This document shows, piece by piece, positions 31,097 through 41,210 of a DNA stretch of 64,000 nt (position 1 is its first letter; each line of letters opens with the position of its first letter). The position numbers and the translations under genes are program-made. Origin of the DNA: Agrobacterium sp. AGB01 (GTDB lineage: Bacteria > Pseudomonadota > Alphaproteobacteria > Rhizobiales > Rhizobiaceae); NCBI RefSeq assembly GCF_014851585.1, contig NZ_JACVAB010000007.1, positions 62,001-126,000 of the forward strand, read 5' to 3'. Under the pieces are notes generated by a model. That model searched no databases. It saw only the letters and a program-made list of their open reading frames with translations, and had not been told where the DNA came from.

Positions 31097-32026
31097 TCAC
31101 CACAGCGATGTCGACGAGACTCTTCGGCTGATACGGTTCGCCGAATAGACAAGAACGAAAGCAATAACCGCGTTGAACAGACCGGCAGCCGTGGCCAGAT
31201 CATACTGCGTGCCTTGCAGACCGGTGCGATAGATGAAGGTCGACACAACGTCGGCCGTTTCATAGGTGGATGGACGGTAAAGAAGGATGATGTATTCGAA
31301 ACCGACCTCGACCAAATTGCCGATGCGGATAATCAGCATGATGATGATCGTCGGCAGAATGCAGGGCAGGGTGATCCGCCACATCATTTGCCAGCGCGAC
31401 GCACCGTCAACACGTGCGGACTCGTAAAGTGTCGGACTGACACCGGCGATCGCGGCAAGATAGACGATCGATTCAAAGCCGGATTCTTTCCATACTGACG
31501 AACCAATGAACACCGGACGGAACCATTCGGGCTGCGTCAGGAAGTATATTGGCTCAAGGCCAATGCCTTTCAGGAAAAGGTTGACGATGCCGATGGAAGG
31601 CGACAGGAAGTTGATGACGATACCGGCAACAATTACCACGGAAATGAAGTGCGGCAGGTAGACGACAGTCTGCGCCCAGCGTTTGCCGATTTCGCTCTGG
31701 ACCTCATTGAACATCAAGGCCAGGATGATCGGCACTGGAAATGCAAAAATCAGTCCGAGGCCGCTGATCGTGATGGTGTTCCAGAAGGCACGTACGAACA
31801 TGTCATTCTGGAAAAGCTCGATGAAATTCGCAAATCCGACAAAGGGGCTTTTTTCGATGCCGCGGAAGATAGAAAAGTCCTGGAAGGCGATGATCAGGCC
31901 GTACATCGGCTTGTAAAGAAACAGCGCAAACCAGATGGCCATCGGTGCCAGCAGCAAATACAGCTGCCAATCGCGGCGCACATCGTGCCACACATCATAG
32001 AGTGATTGTTGGAAATGCTGTTTCAT
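31097..32026 (-). CDS. algM1: Carbohydrate ABC permease, AlgM1/LplB type
   Basis: 309-residue permease with LAPMAIWFALFLYKPMYGLIIA near residues 26-47, followed by AFQDFSIFRGIEKSPFVGF, the hallmark of LplB/AlgM1 proteins. The coupling loop is LYESARVDGASRWQMMWRITLP (about 214-235). It overlaps the ATPase stop by 4 bases (ATGA) and is followed 11 bases later by the second permease. Confidence 0.92.
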   Translation of the reverse strand: MKQHFQQSLYDVWHDVRRDWQLYLLLAPMAIWFALFLYKPMYGLIIAFQDFSIFRGIEKSPFVGFANFIELFQNDMFVRAFWNTITISGLGLIFAFPVPIILALMFNEVQSEIGKRWAQTVVYLPHFISVVIVAGIVINFLSPSIGIVNLFLKGIGLEPIYFLTQPEWFRPVFIGSSVWKESGFESIVYLAAIAGVSPTLYESARVDGASRWQMMWRITLPCILPTIIIMLIIRIGNLVEVGFEYIILLYRPSTYETADVVSTFIYRTGLQGTQYDLATAAGLFNAVIAFVLVYSANRISRRVSSTSLW

Positions 32027-33138
32027 GACCGCGTCTCGCTTGCGGTCTTGAGGGATCGACCTGTTTCGGAATCGAAAACATGGATGCGGGTCTTATCGAT
32101 ACCGAGTTCAGTCACACCATTGAGCGCGTGGTCCGCGTAAAGCGTTTCAGCCTTGGCGATAAAGGGCTGACCGTCGGCCTTACCATGCAACAGAGCCTCC
32201 GCTCCTAGCGGCTCGACAAGTTCGATGTTGCAGTGAAGAACCTCACGCCCTTCTTCCGTTTTTACCGACATGATTTCAGGCCGGATACCGAGCTTAACCG
32301 ACTGCCCCTGCGTTGCATTTTTTGCAAATGCATCGGGGATGGTCAGGCTCTGGCCAGAGCTGCCGGCAATCACGGCTTTGACGCGGCCGTCCTGTTTGTC
32401 GATTGTCGCGTCCAGCAGGTTCATCGGCGGTGACCCGATAAAACTTGCAACGAATGTATTTGCCGGCTCGAGAAACACTTCCATTGGTGACCCGACCTGC
32501 TCGATATTGCCGCGGTTCATGATGACGATGCGGTCGGCGAGCGTCATCGCCTCGACCTGGTCATGGGTCACGTAAACGCTGGTTGCCTGCATGCGCTTGT
32601 GAAGCTGCTTGATTTCAGCCCGCATATGGGTGCGCAGTTTGGCATCGAGATTGGAGAGCGGCTCGTCGAAAAGGAAAATCTTCGGGCGGCGCACGATAGC
32701 GCGACCCATGGCGACGCGCTGACGCTGGCCGCCCGAGAGGTCAGCTGGCTTGCGTGCCAGATATTCCGTCAGCCCCAGGATTTGTGCGGCTTCGGCAACG
32801 GCCTTGTCGACCACATCGCGTTTTTCGCCCCGTACACGCAGGCCAAAAGCAATGTTCTCAGCTACGTTCAGATGCGGATAAAGCGCGTAGTTCTGAAACA
32901 CCATCGCAACATCGCGGTCTTTCGGAGCGATCTTGTTGACGACGCGCCCGTCAATCGAGACGGTGCCGTCGGAGATATCTTCCAGGCCTGCGAGCATGCG
33001 CAGTGTGGTGGATTTTCCGCAGCCCGATGGCCCGACGAGCACAACGAATTCTTGCGGTTGAATGGAAAGGTTGATGCCATGTACGACTTCGAGAGCACCG
33101 TAGCGCTTGACGACATCGTTGATTTGAACTGCAGACAT
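32023..33138 (-). CDS. algS: Sugar ABC transporter ATPase, AlgS/MsmX/UgpC type
   Basis: 371 residues. The nucleotide-binding domain has Walker A GPSGCGKST (about 37-45), Q-loop VFQNYALYPHLNV, signature LSGGQRQRVAMGRAIVRRP and Walker B IFLFDEPLSNLDA, then the switch His in YVTHDQVEAM. The C-terminal 130 residues are an OB-fold (TOBE) regulatory domain (KLGIRPEIMSV). One gene serves both permeases as a homodimer. It lies 34 bases after the GntR gene and overlaps the first permease. Confidence 0.94.
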   Translation of the reverse strand: MSAVQINDVVKRYGALEVVHGINLSIQPQEFVVLVGPSGCGKSTTLRMLAGLEDISDGTVSIDGRVVNKIAPKDRDVAMVFQNYALYPHLNVAENIAFGLRVRGEKRDVVDKAVAEAAQILGLTEYLARKPADLSGGQRQRVAMGRAIVRRPKIFLFDEPLSNLDAKLRTHMRAEIKQLHKRMQATSVYVTHDQVEAMTLADRIVIMNRGNIEQVGSPMEVFLEPANTFVASFIGSPPMNLLDATIDKQDGRVKAVIAGSSGQSLTIPDAFAKNATQGQSVKLGIRPEIMSVKTEEGREVLHCNIELVEPLGAEALLHGKADGQPFIAKAETLYADHALNGVTELGIDKTRIHVFDSETGRSLKTASETRS

Positions 33139-35109: not shown

Positions 35110-35346
35110 TCAGCAGTGGCCGGCTCTAACGCCTGCCAATTGTGTAATTTCGTGTGTCGACAGGTCGGCTGTCAGCTCACTTTTCAATTCGCCCATCAAA
35201 GTCTTGCGGGCTGCGTCCAATTGAAAGGCTGCCGATTTCGAGGAAAGGCTTTCAGCGATCCCAACGGTATATTCGAGCATATTGATTAGCGCGAGGTATT
35301 CCTCATGGCGCTCGCTGAGCTGAATGCTGGCATTGATGTTCGTCAT
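35110..35346 (-). CDS. 78-aa small protein downstream of TfuA, unknown
   Basis: Unrecognised small protein. Mostly helical and polar, with heptad-like leucines in YLALINMLEYTVGIAESL and TLMGELKSELTADL, and ending in a lone cysteine (GVRAGHC). GAGGA lies 5 bases before its ATG. It begins 89 bases after the TfuA stop on the same strand and is the last reading frame of the YcaO/TfuA set. It could be a modification substrate, an immunity or carrier protein, or unrelated. The N-terminal helix with a short Gly/Cys tail resembles a leader-plus-core layout, but this is speculative. Confidence 0.5.
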   Translation of the reverse strand: MTNINASIQLSERHEEYLALINMLEYTVGIAESLSSKSAAFQLDAARKTLMGELKSELTADLSTHEITQLAGVRAGHC

Positions 35347-35435
35347 GCTATCCTCGATATGTTGCCGAGGTCATTGTTAAGCACGGAATTCGTTTGCGTG
35401 CGCGTTGCAAAAGCGTTGCACACGCGAAACGGGAT

Positions 35436-36143
35436 TTATCGTACTTGTTCCCCGTCTTCTGCGCGAAACAAACTACGCCACACGGAAATCTCGTTAAAAG
35501 TCCAAGTCTTGGCCGATGGGGCAGCAACTGGTCGCCGGATCAGCTCAAGCAGTGCAACGGCATCCAAGCGCTTTTGATCAACCCATGCTTGTTTTATTAT
35601 ATTGCGAAGCACAATCGCATCAAAGCCTGCAACTTCCGCGATCCGTGTCCAACTCCTTTCCTTGAAGAAGATGTCACGCGCTGCACGCGAAATATCAAGG
35701 CAATCGGCGGCCGTCAGCACACCGAGGTTTTCAGCACGCGCCAAAGTAGCATCAACATTGACTATCGGTATCGTCAGCGGCATGTAGGCCAACTCGGCTG
35801 GCCCATGCAGCAAGGCGACATCACCATCGTCATCGCGTCGACCGCCGGCATAATCGTCAAAGATCTTGCCAACACCGATCATGCCAAATGCTGCACATTC
35901 TGCGGCACGCAGCGCGCCCATGCTGGCAGCTCCGAATACCCCGATATTCTGGGAGAGAGCAAACAGAAGTTCCTTATGCCAGACGGGCGCCACAAATTCG
36001 AACTGACCATCGATAAGGCCAATCGCCGTTGCACCGTCCCGCATGGCGCGCATGACATCACCCTGGCAGGCAGGAGGCCTGATCTCGACATCCGACAGTT
36101 TGCCAATGTCTGGGAAGCTCGGACCGACGAAGACGACCTTCAT
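35436..36143 (-). CDS. tfuA: TfuA-like protein
   Basis: 235-residue TfuA-domain protein. The family core is unmistakable: VVFVGPSFPD at the start, EIRPPACQGDVMRAMRDG (about 20-37), AIGLIDGQFEFVAPVWHKELLFAL, and VFGAASMGALRAAECAAFGMIGVGKIF (about 69-95). TfuA was first linked to trifolitoxin production. In archaea and actinobacteria TfuA partners YcaO to install thioamides, probably by delivering sulfur. Its ATG overlaps the YcaO stop by 4 bases (ATGA), so the two are co-translated. No other sulfur-transfer gene is nearby. Confidence 0.93.
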   Translation of the reverse strand: MKVVFVGPSFPDIGKLSDVEIRPPACQGDVMRAMRDGATAIGLIDGQFEFVAPVWHKELLFALSQNIGVFGAASMGALRAAECAAFGMIGVGKIFDDYAGGRRDDDGDVALLHGPAELAYMPLTIPIVNVDATLARAENLGVLTAADCLDISRAARDIFFKERSWTRIAEVAGFDAIVLRNIIKQAWVDQKRLDAVALLELIRRPVAAPSAKTWTFNEISVWRSLFRAEDGEQVR

Positions 36144-37345
36144 TGCAAGGCTCGCGAAATCGCCCGGCCACCAAATCTCTGGCGACGCTCACCGTCGGGG
36201 TTTTCAAGCTGCGGCACAACAACCTTTACCACCGCGGCGGGCAACCAGTCGGGAGAGATATCAACCGCGTAGATGTCCGTGATACCTTTGGTTTGCAGGC
36301 GCTCCACAACCCTTTGCAAAGCCTGCTCAGCGCAGCTGGCATTAATGCGGGGCAAATCTTCGAGTTGCATGGCAACCGGCGCATCGAACGCGGCGAGGAT
36401 GGTCGGGTCGGCCGGTTGGCTAAAGGTCTTCGGCATGACGTCATCTCTTGCTCCGGCAATGAAGGTCATGCGTGACTGTACGGCTTCGGTAATCGCCCGC
36501 ATGACAGCGATCTCAGGAGAGATGGAACATCCTGCCCCAAGTGTGATGTCAACATGGCGAAAGCCCTCACCAGCTTGCAGTTGATGTCGCGGCGTCAGAA
36601 GCGCAACCACACAGGGGACCGCGAGGTCGCTGGTGATGTCGAAAACAGCGATTTCCATGTCTGCAGCCGAAATTCTGCCGAGCAAACCCTGCAAGTCGGG
36701 GTTTGCGATCTGGCTGGTGTCAATTCTTGGCTGATAGCGCCTCGCTGACGTTGTTACCTGCCACAGTGTCATGGCGTCGCGTTCAACACGCTCCAGCAAC
36801 CCATGCGATGTCGCTTCGATCAAACTATTGCCGGATGCAAGTCCATCCGACGATTGCCAGAAACGCGGCGCGATCAGAGTGCGGTCGAGTTGAATGGCTT
36901 CCACAGGCAGCCAGACTTTTTTTCCTGTCAGCAAATTGGTCGCACTTGCCCATGAAATCGTTTCGTCATCACGGATCGGCATTGCCTTTACAGCAAGCAG
37001 GCTATCCAGCGTGTTTACGACCTCGCCAGCCGAGCGTAGAGATGAAGGCGTATCAGATACTATCTGACAGGCCGGGCTGGCGGCAACGGCACGTTCAACG
37101 GCTTCCATGACAGCTGACGTTCGAGCCGAATCGTCGTCGATGCCCTTGCCTTGCGCAATAACAATCGCTTTGGCGTTTGGCGTATAGGCGCACCAGACCG
37201 GTACACCGATACGATCAAGGCTGGTTTGTTTGGCGACCCTGGTAATACCGAGCCGAGACAGAATAGGAGAGACCCGTTGAAAGGTCTCTCCCGCAGAACA
37301 TGAACGGAAATCGACAGTATCGATTTCTAACTGATCAGGATTCAT
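36140..37345 (-). CDS. YcaO-domain protein (TfuA-associated cyclodehydratase/thioamide synthetase)
   Basis: 401 residues. The YcaO ATP/Mg-binding motifs are present in order: SAVMEAVERAVA (about 77-88), SLIEATSHGLLERVERDA (about 178-195) and VMRAITEAVQSR (about 286-297). There is no N-terminal ocin-ThiF/E1-like domain, so leader recognition would need a partner. The C-terminus lacks the proline-rich tail of azoline cyclodehydratases, consistent with the TfuA-dependent subclass that makes backbone thioamides. ATG 37345 overlaps the upstream 73-aa frame by 11 bases, which argues for translational coupling to it. The substrate is unknown. Confidence 0.92.
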   Translation of the reverse strand: MNPDQLEIDTVDFRSCSAGETFQRVSPILSRLGITRVAKQTSLDRIGVPVWCAYTPNAKAIVIAQGKGIDDDSARTSAVMEAVERAVAASPACQIVSDTPSSLRSAGEVVNTLDSLLAVKAMPIRDDETISWASATNLLTGKKVWLPVEAIQLDRTLIAPRFWQSSDGLASGNSLIEATSHGLLERVERDAMTLWQVTTSARRYQPRIDTSQIANPDLQGLLGRISAADMEIAVFDITSDLAVPCVVALLTPRHQLQAGEGFRHVDITLGAGCSISPEIAVMRAITEAVQSRMTFIAGARDDVMPKTFSQPADPTILAAFDAPVAMQLEDLPRINASCAEQALQRVVERLQTKGITDIYAVDISPDWLPAAVVKVVVPQLENPDGERRQRFGGRAISRALQ

Positions 37346-37556
37346 GGTGTCCGGATGCGGCGACCTCAGCAGACGAAAATGCGACAGCAAAGTTTACACC
37401 CTTGACGATTGTCGAGCCCTGCTGGCGAAGCGTCTGAGCGTTGGCGAGGTCACTACCAGCGGGCGGCGCACTCAGTGGAGAAACGGTGCCTGATGTGAAA
37501 TCTACGAGCCAGAGCTGTTCATCTCCGGGAAGTCCAATAACTGCAACCTTAGACAC
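37335..37556 (-). CDS. 73-aa small protein preceding YcaO, candidate modification substrate
   Basis: Start GTG at 37556 with AAGGAG 7 bases upstream; a longer frame to 37649 overlaps the SARP gene and is rejected. The N-terminal third looks like beta strands (KVAVIGLPGDEQLWLVDF), then a Ser/Pro-rich linker (SGTVSPLSAPPAGSD), a helix-like TLRQQGSTIVKG, and a small-residue tail NFAVAFSSAEVAASGHHES. It has no Cys, so an azole-type product is limited to Ser/Thr, while backbone thioamidation needs none. Its stop overlaps the YcaO start by 11 bases. It is the best precursor or substrate candidate by position; no homologue is recognised. Confidence 0.65.
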   Translation of the reverse strand: MSKVAVIGLPGDEQLWLVDFTSGTVSPLSAPPAGSDLANAQTLRQQGSTIVKGVNFAVAFSSAEVAASGHHES

Positions 37557-37570
37557 GATGTTCTCCTTTG

Positions 37571-39400
37571 TTAAAAACCGGCCTTGATCAGGCCTTCCCG
37601 GTAAAGCTCTGTCTGCCAGGGCTCCTTGTGGGGCACCATCTTCAGCCAACGCTCGAGATCGAAATCAGGATTACTTTTCAGAACGCGCAACCTGCAGGCA
37701 CGTGCCTTTGCCATGTCGCCAAGCATACCCCAGCATGCCGCAGCAAGACGTGATGCCGGCGCGCTATCGCGCATCTGTCCGATGTAATCCAGAGCCTGAC
37801 GAAACTCGCCAAGGAAGTAACTGGCGCCAGCCGCAGTCCACAGGTAGGTGTCCGGAGACAACGGGTTGAGCGCAATGGCCGAACTGATCTTTTCAAGTGC
37901 AGCTTTGGGATCACTGGCGTGAACAAGGCTGTCTGCGTGACTGTAGAGCACGTCGGCATAAGTCGGGTTGAATGTTTCGGCCTGGCCAAGCGCCGCCAGA
38001 CTGTCGTCAATTTTTCCGCCATAGAGTTGGCTGACGCCGAGTTCCTTGTACGCTCCGGCAAATTCGGCATTCTCGGCTACGGCTATCTTGGCCTGCTCTT
38101 CTGCATGCTGGAGAAGCTCGCTGTCGCCTCTCGCCGTCAACAGCCATTCCATGGTCAGTGTTCTGGAAATTCCAGCCCGCGCTGCAGAGAAGCTCTTGTC
38201 ACCATCAAGAGCCTGCCTGAAATACCGTCGCGCTTTTCTGATCGATGGCAGATCCAGTTTGGAAAGGCTCTGCAGGCCACGCAGATAGGCGTAATAGGCG
38301 TCCGGACGGCTGTGATAATCGGCCACATTGGACGTGCGACCACCGACCTTGTCGAAAATCGACTTTTGAATGACCTCGGCGATTTCGAGCTTCTGGATTG
38401 CAACCTCGTCGGGTTTCAACTGAAAACGGGTTGCCCACAACACCTCGTCACTCGGCATGAAGATCAATTGCACAAACAACTGATCATCAGACCGCTTCGT
38501 GTCGAGTGCATACATGACCGAATGTTTTTCGAGAATCCCGGCCTTGTCTTTCGAGGCGCGAATACGTTCGGCGGTGTAGGGGGCAACCACCGAGACCGAG
38601 CGGCTGGTGCAGAGGCCAATTGTCAAATCTTCAATCAGCGCGTTGGCCACGGAGCCATATTGCTGGGCACTGTGAAGTGTCTCAGGGGGCAGCAGCGCAA
38701 TTCGCGGCGGAACGGTAATGTCAAAGGCCGTTTTCACGTCCGATGATTGAAGATTGGCAGGCTGTGGCGGTAAAAAGCTGACGAGAGGACGGGCAACTGC
38801 AGCAGTTTGCTGTTCACCCAATTCCACAGGCGACGAAATCGTTCTTCTGACCTCCTCGTCGTCAGGATCGCATTCAAGCAGCAACACTGCAGCACGTCGA
38901 AGATCGGACCGGCTCTGGTCGGAGGCCGGTAGCGTTTGAAACTGCATGAATTCGGTACGCAACTGGCCGACCAAACGCGTGCGGACGTCACGAACCCAGG
39001 CATCCAGCGCACTTGATCCGTCGCCATGCAAGGGAAGAAACTTCAAAGCCACGGCATCTGTGGCTGCTTTGAGGCGTTCTGTGGGATCTGTCAGCGCAGA
39101 CATCGCTAGATCACAACGTATGGCCTGCGGGGCAAGGGACAAGGTCGTGCCGTCTGCTACAACTAGCGGGCCTGAGGGATCGGTTGCCATTGCCAGGCGC
39201 CGAAGCATGGAGCGCATATTGGTGGCTGCGGCCTCTCCACGGTCAGGCCATAAAAAGCTGGCCACTTGCCGCCGGGCGACCGGCCTATCCATGTCATGAA
39301 GATAGGCCAGAAACACCAGTGACAGGCCGGGCACAGATAAATTCTGCCCAGCGCCGTCGCGTAGACTGCTGTCACCAAGTGTCGTTAAAACAAAGCCCAT
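37571..39400 (-). CDS. SARP/TPR-type transcriptional regulator
   Basis: 609 residues. The first 100 resemble the winged helix of SARP-type activators (LSLVFLAYLHDMDRPVARRQVASFLWPD, then NMRSMLRRLA). A BTAD-like helical part follows. About 230-330 is a domain often found after such regulators (PPRIALLPPETL...IEDLTIGLCTSRSVSVVAP). From about 355 to 590 there are several TPR units (AYYAYLRGLQSLSKLD, AGAYKELGVSQLYGGKIDDSLAALGQAETFNP, ADVLYSHADSLVHASDPKAALEKISSAIALNP). It starts 6 bases after the XRE stop and ends 14 bases before the 73-aa gene, so it is probably the locus activator. Confidence 0.82.
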   Translation of the reverse strand: MGFVLTTLGDSSLRDGAGQNLSVPGLSLVFLAYLHDMDRPVARRQVASFLWPDRGEAAATNMRSMLRRLAMATDPSGPLVVADGTTLSLAPQAIRCDLAMSALTDPTERLKAATDAVALKFLPLHGDGSSALDAWVRDVRTRLVGQLRTEFMQFQTLPASDQSRSDLRRAAVLLLECDPDDEEVRRTISSPVELGEQQTAAVARPLVSFLPPQPANLQSSDVKTAFDITVPPRIALLPPETLHSAQQYGSVANALIEDLTIGLCTSRSVSVVAPYTAERIRASKDKAGILEKHSVMYALDTKRSDDQLFVQLIFMPSDEVLWATRFQLKPDEVAIQKLEIAEVIQKSIFDKVGGRTSNVADYHSRPDAYYAYLRGLQSLSKLDLPSIRKARRYFRQALDGDKSFSAARAGISRTLTMEWLLTARGDSELLQHAEEQAKIAVAENAEFAGAYKELGVSQLYGGKIDDSLAALGQAETFNPTYADVLYSHADSLVHASDPKAALEKISSAIALNPLSPDTYLWTAAGASYFLGEFRQALDYIGQMRDSAPASRLAAACWGMLGDMAKARACRLRVLKSNPDFDLERWLKMVPHKEPWQTELYREGLIKAGF

Positions 39401-39406
39401 ATGGTA

Positions 39407-39832
39407 TCAGATGGAGGCGTTATTATGATCTTCCTCACCCGCACTGGACGGGTCGGTTCTCAGCGTCCGGACGAGATTGAGAACGCTCTGACGCAAGCGT
39501 GGGCTCTTGATCGAGTTGAACGCGGTCACCAAGGCAATCGTCTCCTTGGAGCTCATCAATTCATTAAACTCGCCCATAGGGGAGCCGGCACTGTTGACCA
39601 GTGCGTTTGGGCCGTTTTCAAAGAAAAAGCTGATCGGGACCTCAAGTACTTCGGAAATGTGCTGTAGTCGGCTGGCGCTGACCCGGTTGATACCCTTTTC
39701 GTATTTCTGAACTTGCTGGAAGGTTAGGCCAAGTCCATCGGCGAGCTGTTCTTGCGACAGACCAGCAATCGATCGACGAAGGCGAATACGAGAACCAACA
39801 TGAACGTCAATAGGGTTGGGAAGTCTATTCAT
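39407..39832 (-). CDS. XRE-family helix-turn-helix regulator
   Basis: 141 residues. The N-terminal HTH_3 domain reads GSRIRLRRSIAGLSQEQLADGLGLTFQQVQKYEKGINRVSASRLQHIS (about 13-60), the standard XRE pattern seen in rhizobial regulators such as PraR. The C-terminal 60 residues are polar and unassigned. It is the first gene of the leftward YcaO/TfuA set. An inverted repeat AACG-TTT-CGTT sits 16 bases upstream of its start and may be its own operator. Confidence 0.88.
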   Translation of the reverse strand: MNRLPNPIDVHVGSRIRLRRSIAGLSQEQLADGLGLTFQQVQKYEKGINRVSASRLQHISEVLEVPISFFFENGPNALVNSAGSPMGEFNELMSSKETIALVTAFNSIKSPRLRQSVLNLVRTLRTDPSSAGEEDHNNASI

Positions 39833-39959: not shown

Positions 39960-41210
39960 TCAGCTCTGATGGCTCGATAGCGCACTGCGAGATCCGGCGA
40001 TCAACGGCAGTGACGTTATAATGACCGGCAACAACAATACTGCCCAGGCGACGCCATAACCAAAATAGTCGGCCAGCAGTCCGAACAGGTAGGGTCCAGC
40101 CGCCATCACGGCCAGGCAGATCGTCGAGGCAAAGGCGATTGTAGAGGCAATCGAACTTTTCGGCGCACTCTCGGCAATTTGCAGCAGGTAAAGCGGAAAC
40201 CAGCCAATCCCAAAAAACCCAAGGACGAGCAAAATGGCTGCAATCGTTATCGTTGACGATCCGACCGGCAGGACAGCAAGAAGGACAGCCGACGCCGCAG
40301 CAATGAGTGAAACGGCACCAAAAGATCTGGCGCGCAGGCCCGGCCAAAACCGATCACTCAGCCACGGCAACAGGATACGTCCGGGTATGCCTGCAAGTTG
40401 GGTTGCCGCAAACAATGATGATGCTGCGATCAAACCGAGTTTCAACCCGTCTGCAATGAAGCCGATCATGTGGGCCGTGAACGTGAATTGAAATGCCGAC
40501 ATTGCGATGCCAAGGCGCAGTACTGGCCAGAATTGCGGATCCTGACCGACAATCCGTGCCAGCGACAACAGGCGCAGAGGTGCGCTCTTTGAAGACGTAA
40601 ACTCGCTGCCCTCGCGGTAAAGCCCGAAAAACAAAATCGCACCCAGCATAGAAATCGCAGCACCCAGCCAGGTTGCAGCCTGCCACCCGTAATGGATAGC
40701 CAAAAGCGGCAACAAAGCTGCGGCAATCATCGTGCCGAACGGAACGGCAGCCTGCCGAAAGCCGGTGGCAATTCCACGGTGCGATGGTGGGAACCACCGC
40801 ATGATCGCTCTGGTCCCACCGGGCTGCACCGCGGCATAGGTTCCACCGAGACATGCCATGCAGATCAAAAGGGCGACAAAACTGTTGGCGATCGTGGCGG
40901 CACACGCCATGGCAATTGCCATGCCGATCATAGCCAGGCCAACGATCCTCCGCTCGCCATAAAGATCGATTGCGCGACCGAGTGTAAACATCGTGGCGAT
41001 CTGCACCCCATTCATGACGGTGACGGCAAGCGACGCCGACGCTAGGGAAATACCAAATGCCTCCCGCCAGAACGGCACAAGGATATAGACGCCCTGGGAG
41101 ACAAAGGAACCTGCGGTCTGAGTGCCGACTGCGATCGCCAAGATGGCCCAGATATTGGGATCTGCACCGGCGGCAGATGGTGATGGTTCGGCGGGTAGGC
41201 GACGCAGCAT
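39960..41210 (-). CDS. MFS transporter
   Basis: 416-residue major facilitator with about 12 hydrophobic segments. LGRAIDLYGERRIVGLAMIG (about 77-96) is the MFS loop 2-3 signature, and PSHRGIATGFRQAAVPFGTMI follows in TM5. It resembles CynX/NarK-like or sugar/organic-anion MFS proteins, with substrate unknown. It is divergent from a LysR gene, suggesting control by that regulator. It lies 127 bases upstream of the XRE gene on the same strand, so co-transcription with the YcaO/TfuA set, possibly as an exporter, cannot be excluded. Confidence 0.88.
   Translation of the reverse strand: MLRRLPAEPSPSAAGADPNIWAILAIAVGTQTAGSFVSQGVYILVPFWREAFGISLASASLAVTVMNGVQIATMFTLGRAIDLYGERRIVGLAMIGMAIAMACAATIANSFVALLICMACLGGTYAAVQPGGTRAIMRWFPPSHRGIATGFRQAAVPFGTMIAAALLPLLAIHYGWQAATWLGAAISMLGAILFFGLYREGSEFTSSKSAPLRLLSLARIVGQDPQFWPVLRLGIAMSAFQFTFTAHMIGFIADGLKLGLIAASSLFAATQLAGIPGRILLPWLSDRFWPGLRARSFGAVSLIAAASAVLLAVLPVGSSTITIAAILLVLGFFGIGWFPLYLLQIAESAPKSSIASTIAFASTICLAVMAAGPYLFGLLADYFGYGVAWAVLLLPVIITSLPLIAGSRSALSSHQS

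Follow-up and report, generated by a model that had tools for sequence, protein, structure and literature searches.

A six-gene YcaO–TfuA operon of Agrobacterium sp. AGB01 as a probable biosynthetic locus for a thioamidated peptide

The DNA stretch analyzed here, 64,000 nucleotides of Agrobacterium sp. AGB01 (contig NZ_JACVAB010000007.1, positions 62,001 to 126,000 of the forward strand; hereafter the window), carries six tightly packed genes around an adjacent ycaO and tfuA pair. This set is very probably a compact operon of the thioamidated type that makes ribosomally synthesized and post-translationally modified peptides (RiPPs), with a 73-aa protein as the precursor. Three features of the set, namely (i) the anatomy of the precursor, (ii) its linkage to the modifying enzymes, and (iii) the conservation of all six genes, are established by comparison of homologous loci. 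The set is common in rhizobia and their relatives, and its most likely product is a small peptide modified with sulfur. The genes and the putative core, in order of transcription, are as follows.

39407..39832, minus strand: XRE-family helix-turn-helix (HTH) regulator, 141 aa; opens the operon (HTH_3, E=3.7e-12)
37571..39400, minus strand: SARP-like/TPR protein, 609 aa; marginal winged helix/BTAD, TPR repeats
37335..37556, minus strand: RiPP-type precursor, 73 aa, GTG start; supported by hidden Markov model (HMM) family, predicted fold, and repeats in homologues
37338..37361, minus strand: putative precursor core, residues 66-73, ending S-G-H-H-E-S; exact limits inferred
36140..37345, minus strand: YcaO, 401 aa; of a family of ATP-dependent enzymes that modify peptide backbones (PF02624, E=3.6e-67)
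35436..36143, minus strand: TfuA, 235 aa; probable sulfur-delivery partner (PF07812, E=5.9e-40)
35110..35346, minus strand: small helical-hairpin protein, 78 aa; conserved accessory gene (HMM in 124/181 loci)

The close packing on one strand described in the original prediction, which was made from the sequence alone, is borne out: 6 bases separate the XRE and SARP-like genes and 14 the SARP-like and 73-aa genes, the 73-aa gene overlaps ycaO by 11 bases, and ycaO overlaps tfuA by 4. The 78-aa gene starts 89 bases downstream of tfuA.

The 73-aa protein is most likely a RiPP-type precursor with a conserved leader and a variable C-terminal core. Across its family, a leader of ~60 aa is conserved (consensus MAKxVxIGIPGExGLWLADLxAGTVxPL...VKGVDxAVAVSS), and the short tail that follows varies. 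Most tails consist of one SGHHES-, SGLFD-, or SGHVDG-type unit; that of the window, ending ..AASGHHES, is a single unit as well. Gly69 is kept in at least 90% of precursor alignment A2. The motif G-x-[FHMLVYI]-[DE] occurs past residue 50 in 92 of 117 distinct precursors versus a shuffled mean of 13.6, and cysteine is found in that region in only four.

The core-like segment is present two to eight times in 20 of the 117 homologues. These 20 have an exact 4-mer repeated past residue 50 (shuffled mean 4.2), at least three times in 15 of them. The repeated units include GLHE three times (loci L040, L146, and L149), SGKL four times (L039), GYMD three times (L057 and L081), GGFFE or GGFLE four times (L222 and L223), and LFERSE six times (L224). 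The tail of L190 has six RMD units, five being GRMD, and those of L231-L233 have five to eight Tyr-, His-, and Phe-rich units. Such duplicated C-terminal cores fit a RiPP precursor and are hard to explain in a regulator or adaptor. At six loci of L032-L211 (L141, L125, L051, L077, L095, and L112), one cluster holds two precursor genes.

The best of five AlphaFold models of the 73-aa protein (mean pLDDT 76.6; others 60-69) has a β-β-β-α leader and a low-confidence end. A Foldseek search with this model gives no match at E≤0.001. RiPP recognition-element structures stand among its top fold matches (5v1u, E 0.31, TM 0.31; 5why, E 0.73), at values too weak for an assignment, and profile searches against PDB sequences yield nothing convincing.

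Other small proteins occupy a comparable position elsewhere. L034, L061, and L066 (also L053 and L076) have a related YcaO-TfuA-SARP layout with proteins of ~140-200 aa before YcaO (N-terminus like FYVIGK.GSGVLFIRT); they resemble another, second family of precursors in which the leader is longer. Loci of the SARP-YcaO-TfuA type with a 42-65-aa open reading frame before YcaO (L043, L065, L070, L086, L088, L104, and L108) perhaps represent a third, short precursor type, ending ..NIVHAVRFR, ..NIVHALKFR, or ..NLTHALKFR.

The six genes are a real conserved unit, more than a chance grouping. Two sets of loci bear on this: a named-locus set, the best 80 of 575, and a TfuA-centred set of 100 of about 110 TfuA places listed in the taxonomic family of the window. 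The two share some genomes (e.g., L035/L133) and are therefore non-independent. The named loci come from Rhizobium, Agrobacterium, Sinorhizobium/Ensifer, Neorhizobium, Pararhizobium, Pseudorhizobium, and others; 60 of the best 80 hold all six genes together, 66 an adjacent precursor, and 76 an XRE homologue within the stretch. Gene spacing is close, with a median of 20 bases from SARP-like gene to precursor (n=65) and -4 bases from YcaO to TfuA (n=59). In the TfuA-centred set, the precursor HMM (73-aa seed) matches 45/100 loci, XRE, SARP-like, precursor, YcaO, and 78-aa genes all surround TfuA in 39, and 29 have YcaO with no XRE, SARP-like, precursor, or 78-aa gene.

TfuA itself is encoded in 86 of 297 sampled genomes of the family. 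At the level of the order (own family included), the precursor is found in 19/297 genomes, the match being weak in three (E 4e-5 to 4e-4); YcaO and TfuA adjoin it in 17, the set is split in one, and in another a contig end cuts the locus, with SARP and XRE still there. In the class sample, the only precursor genome among 385 is that of the window. Spread by viruses was considered and dropped: 71 viral-contig stretches matched a pattern, but a YcaO relative is encoded in none of them.

From genus to genus, the two small frames keep both their place and their sequence. The median ratio of nonsynonymous to synonymous substitution rates (dN/dS) is 0.24 for the 73-aa family (327 pairs with dS 0.1-1; 72% of pairs <0.5) and 0.19 for the 78-aa family (342 pairs, same dS range; 81% <0.5), with the pairs non-independent and the three top-ratio pairs of each family (about 1 or above) only 19-35% identical. 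The original prediction of a peptide-modification system around YcaO and TfuA thus finds support in neighbours and small frames conserved across genera. Freely varying neighbours and unconserved small frames, which it had named as the marks of a chance grouping, are not what the homologous loci display.

The link between precursor and enzymes also goes further than their being neighbours. In a maximum-likelihood tree of 97 YcaOs, all 45 precursor-bearing rows lie within one 46-row clade (support 98/96). The sole row of this clade without an adjacent precursor, L041, belongs to a genome in which a SARP-precursor module is found on a different contig. Whole-genome searches reveal the same for other incomplete loci. 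The precursor is encoded elsewhere in 14/14 genomes without an adjacent one, each time with a SARP-like gene directly upstream (14/14). Adjacent TfuA is missing from 13 of the best 80 named loci, and TfuA is found elsewhere in 13/13 of these genomes, compared with 86/297 genomes of the family that have any TfuA; in 12 of the 13, a TfuA stands in a stretch of ~3 kb free of YcaO. The YcaO-free TfuA is divergent from a SARP-like gene in seven genomes, with the precursor about 2-3 kb off, and follows XRE in five. Because the missing genes are recovered elsewhere, the set has been scattered into modules yet retained. A second precursor locus with YcaO-TfuA is present in two of the 14 split genomes (L187 and L192).

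XRE-TfuA pairs with no YcaO in the surrounding stretch occur at L045, L071, L110, L256, L259, L264, L266, and L268; in the Sinorhizobium/Ensifer genomes of L156, L162, L163, L177, and L197, the SARP-precursor-YcaO-78-aa module lies elsewhere.

The YcaO and TfuA of the window can be assigned without doubt. Residues Ser77, Glu81, Glu84, Arg85, Glu185, Glu188, Glu287, and Gln290 are invariant in 26/26 aligned YcaOs, and the catalytic-type acidic and Arg positions among them presumably bind ATP and Mg. The nearest solved structure is MJ1094 (E=4.6e-32), a protein with a role at McrA; for TfuA it is the TfuA-domain protein 6xp8 (E=2.4e-26). The pair passes the rule of adjacent ycaO and tfuA, with PF02624 and PF07812 far above their cut-offs. 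It does not reach the McrA-thioamidation equivalog cut-offs TIGR03266 (207.6/365 bits) and NF033432 (163.2/235.2 bits), nor does YcaO reach NF040716 (18.3/700 bits), the model for the E. coli-type S12 methylthiotransferase accessory protein. No E1-like/ocin-ThiF partner or dehydrogenase of azole RiPPs (TOMM/LAP) is encoded by the six genes and the two flanking ones, to which this search was confined; over that range, the exclusion of a standard azole RiPP in the original prediction holds. A ThiS-like carrier was also sought within the operon. None of the six proteins matched, and one ThiS is encoded elsewhere in the genome.

From family knowledge, we infer the thioamide chemistry, its site, the sulfur route, product release, and regulation as follows. 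The N-terminal part of the precursor, ~60 residues, would be a leader bound by the YcaO-TfuA pair. YcaO would activate a core backbone amide using ATP, while TfuA would supply sulfide, the probable source of which is a primary-metabolism carrier of the thiocarboxylated ThiS type; TfuA is described as working with such a carrier (as cited in the text of PMC13063428). The outcome would be a thioamide in the C-terminal core, perhaps at the conserved Gly, and host peptidases may release the product. The XRE and SARP-like/TPR proteins would regulate the operon, with the 78-aa helical protein as a possible accessory or regulatory partner.

Several observations weigh against this assignment. The G-x-hydrophobic-acid motif is missing from 25/117 precursors, and the modified site may therefore not be that Gly. 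Family searches of the six proteins did not find a leader-binding domain. An adjacent precursor is missing from 14 of the best 80 named loci, which splitting explains only post hoc. In the L187 genome, the inspected TfuA copies have their own YcaO, and of the 13 genomes whose locus lacks TfuA next to YcaO, 11 have at least two TfuA matches. The genomes and the 117 distinct precursors are related to each other, so that the counts are non-independent. Finally, YcaO enzymes also make azolines and amidines, so the modification may be other than a thioamide, and serine occurs past residue 50 in 116/117 precursors.

The last two points lead to the strongest alternative, in which the 73-aa protein still serves as the precursor, YcaO introduces a different backbone change (azoline, amidine, or macrocycle), and TfuA does something else. 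YcaO families do differ in chemistry, nearly every core region offers a serine, and both McrA-thioamidation cut-offs are missed. Nor is TfuA obligatory for every thioamidating YcaO, some thioglycine-containing methanogens being without it according to the text of PMC5589413. This alternative is nevertheless unlikely: TfuA is retained in 13/13 genomes where it stands apart from YcaO, it is needed for McrA thioglycine formation in Methanosarcina acetivorans (PMC5589413) and for the thiovarsolins (PMC6511847), the core region has cysteine in only 4/117 precursors, and no E1/ocin-ThiF-like protein is found among the six genes. Thioamidation of the 73-aa precursor is accordingly preferred over another backbone chemistry.

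A housekeeping YcaO-TfuA pair that modifies another cellular protein, with the small frames as unrelated neighbours, has precedents in methanogen McrA and, for YcaO alone, in uL16 (text of PMC5589413 and PMC13063428), and it would account for the 14 XRE-YcaO-(TfuA)-78-aa loci without an adjacent precursor. It is very improbable, however, with the precursor encoded elsewhere in all 14 such genomes, a single YcaO clade paired with a single precursor family, and the cores repeated, and with TfuA in only 86/297 family genomes, unlike a housekeeping gene.

The 78-aa gene is a conserved member of the set. Its HMM matches 124/181 loci, including 106/112 precursor loci and 18 loci without an adjacent precursor; an earlier suggestion from tblastn that the gene is restricted to the clade was overturned by this HMM. 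It lies at most 200 bases after TfuA in 60/61 named loci measured and at most 300 bases after it in 38/43 TfuA-centred matches. The exceptions are L034, L061, and L066, where it lies beside XRE, L049, where it is 7 kb away, and L090, where TfuA is inverted. AlphaFold2 (AF2) predicts two long helices that form a hairpin (mean pLDDT 81), for which Foldseek finds no match at E≤0.001.

Both small frames had been put forward as candidate substrates. The anatomy of the 73-aa precursor upholds this for one of them, and the 78-aa protein, with its predicted helical hairpin and lack of repeats, is probably not a substrate. That it is the modified substrate, with the 73-aa protein as an adaptor, can be set aside as highly improbable: it matches the 73-aa gene in how widely it occurs, including the 18 loci without an adjacent precursor, and ends Gly-His-Cys in the window group, but the hairpin is predicted confidently, the C-terminus varies across the family with no repeats seen in the listed members, the gene is undetected in 6/112 precursor loci, and it sits beside XRE instead of after TfuA in L034, L061, and L066. 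A link between the 78-aa protein and XRE is possible.

The large regulator is a TPR protein with a marginal SARP-type N-terminus. In this 609-aa protein, TPR families match only below curated cut-offs in the window itself, while TPR_2 and TPR_19 are found in 21/21 homologues (E≤0.5). Trans_reg_C is weak and present in 4/21 (best 0.084), and BTAD is present in one (3.5e-5). Against PDB sequences, the N-terminal profile gives nothing better than a response regulator at E=0.61 and an unrelated protein at E=0.48, and no NCBIfam regulator family is found in the N-terminal part of the window protein. The TPR half of the earlier "SARP/TPR" label therefore stands, whereas the SARP half is likely but marginal, since Trans_reg_C and BTAD matches are few and weak next to TPR in 21/21. 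The view that such a protein is an unusual control layer does not survive comparison, as 67/100 TfuA-centred loci have one in the surrounding stretch by tblastn at E≤1e-5, with identities down to about 30% in some.

Upstream of XRE, TTGC-N17-GCAA occurs in 5 of 63 regions and TTGC-N18-GCAA in 9 (shuffled means 0.3 and 0.05). Many carriers are in the group nearest the window, and the element is not found upstream of XRE in the window itself; it may be either a promoter or an XRE operator. Consensus scans give 4 promoters versus 3.1 expected and 11 terminators versus 6.9 expected.

A further, speculative and rather doubtful possibility is that the thioamidated peptide has its receptor in the TPR regulator and that XRE, the SARP-like/TPR protein, precursor, YcaO-TfuA, and 78-aa partner form a peptide-signalling or feedback circuit. 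Three features allow it: the SARP-like gene stays directly upstream of the precursor after relocation (14/14); the invariant columns of the regulator concentrate in its TPR part (59 of 80 in residues 341-609 and 8 in the N-terminal 230); and neither the two flanking genes nor the gene groups shared between loci show an exporter or immunity gene at a fixed place. If so, a protease-resistant thioamide peptide would serve as ligand in a self-contained rhizobial circuit.

Among known systems, trifolitoxin tfuA of Rhizobium, reportedly described by Breil in 1996, resembles the window in TfuA and a rhizobial host. The thiovarsolin clusters share the core of precursor, YcaO, and TfuA (varA, varY, and varT), which is enough for thiovarsolin B; like the window they are without a specific protease, their transporter gene is dispensable, and their homologous precursors vary in repeat number as the rhizobial family does (text of PMC6511847). 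In contrast, they are actinobacterial, from another phylum, and the six genes of the window have no match to the heme-oxygenase-like VarO; membership of the thiovarsolin family, judged by VarO, does not extend to the window. The terms SARP, TPR, and Rhizobi- are absent from the main text of that paper (PMC6511847). The methanogen YcaO-TfuA pair acts on a large enzyme, and the window scores below its equivalog cut-offs; in McrA, thioamidated Gly465 is followed by Phe-Asp, which resembles the core G-x-F-D and is a weak lead (text of PMC5589413).

Up to 2021, known YcaO-TfuA RiPP products were all actinobacterial, and most candidate clusters were proteobacterial, with over 500 candidate biosynthetic gene clusters in Rhizobium and with Rhizobium and Agrobacterium among the dominant proteobacterial families (text of PMC8120280). 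These TfuA-related families, defined by adjacent YcaO and TfuA, probably include the locus type of the window. The system, called uncharacterised in the original prediction, therefore probably belongs to clusters already counted as candidate thioamidated RiPPs, although in the text of PMC8120280, Supplementary Figures 1-5 apart, neither such a precursor and its repeats nor the 78-aa partner, the regulators, or the splitting is named. A 'TfuA-related' cluster called by antiSMASH is mentioned in passing in two genome papers (PMC7356062 and PMC7232506). No description of the precursor family or its leader string was found in the literature searched, which left aside supplements and most subscription papers, so an earlier listing is possible; conference abstracts that combine TfuA and SARP use the latter for an algorithm. 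The kind of cluster is thus known already, and the precursor family with its repeats, the helical partner, and the six-gene unit are added here. With the precursor family, repeated core, and full gene set named, anonymous YcaO-TfuA matches in Rhizobium, Sinorhizobium, and Agrobacterium become testable by three-gene expression. In one strain of Sinorhizobium meliloti, pSymB bears the SARP-like, precursor, YcaO, and 78-aa genes, which opens a role in plant-associated life to genetics.

Of the neighbouring genes, a major facilitator superfamily (MFS) transporter at 39960-41210 lies on the same strand about 130 bases upstream of XRE. Considered as an exporter, it joined no gene group with other loci and is therefore probably outside the system. 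The ABC ATPase at 32023-33138 was likewise rejected as a component; it falls in a loose group, c5, found in 25/101 loci at varying places. In another group, c6 (25 loci, including L042), a ~1000-aa protein precedes YcaO-TfuA, with guanylate cyclase, AAA, and TPR matches by Pfam in L042; the pair is often followed by proteins of ~400 aa and ~160 aa, which have no Pfam match in L042.

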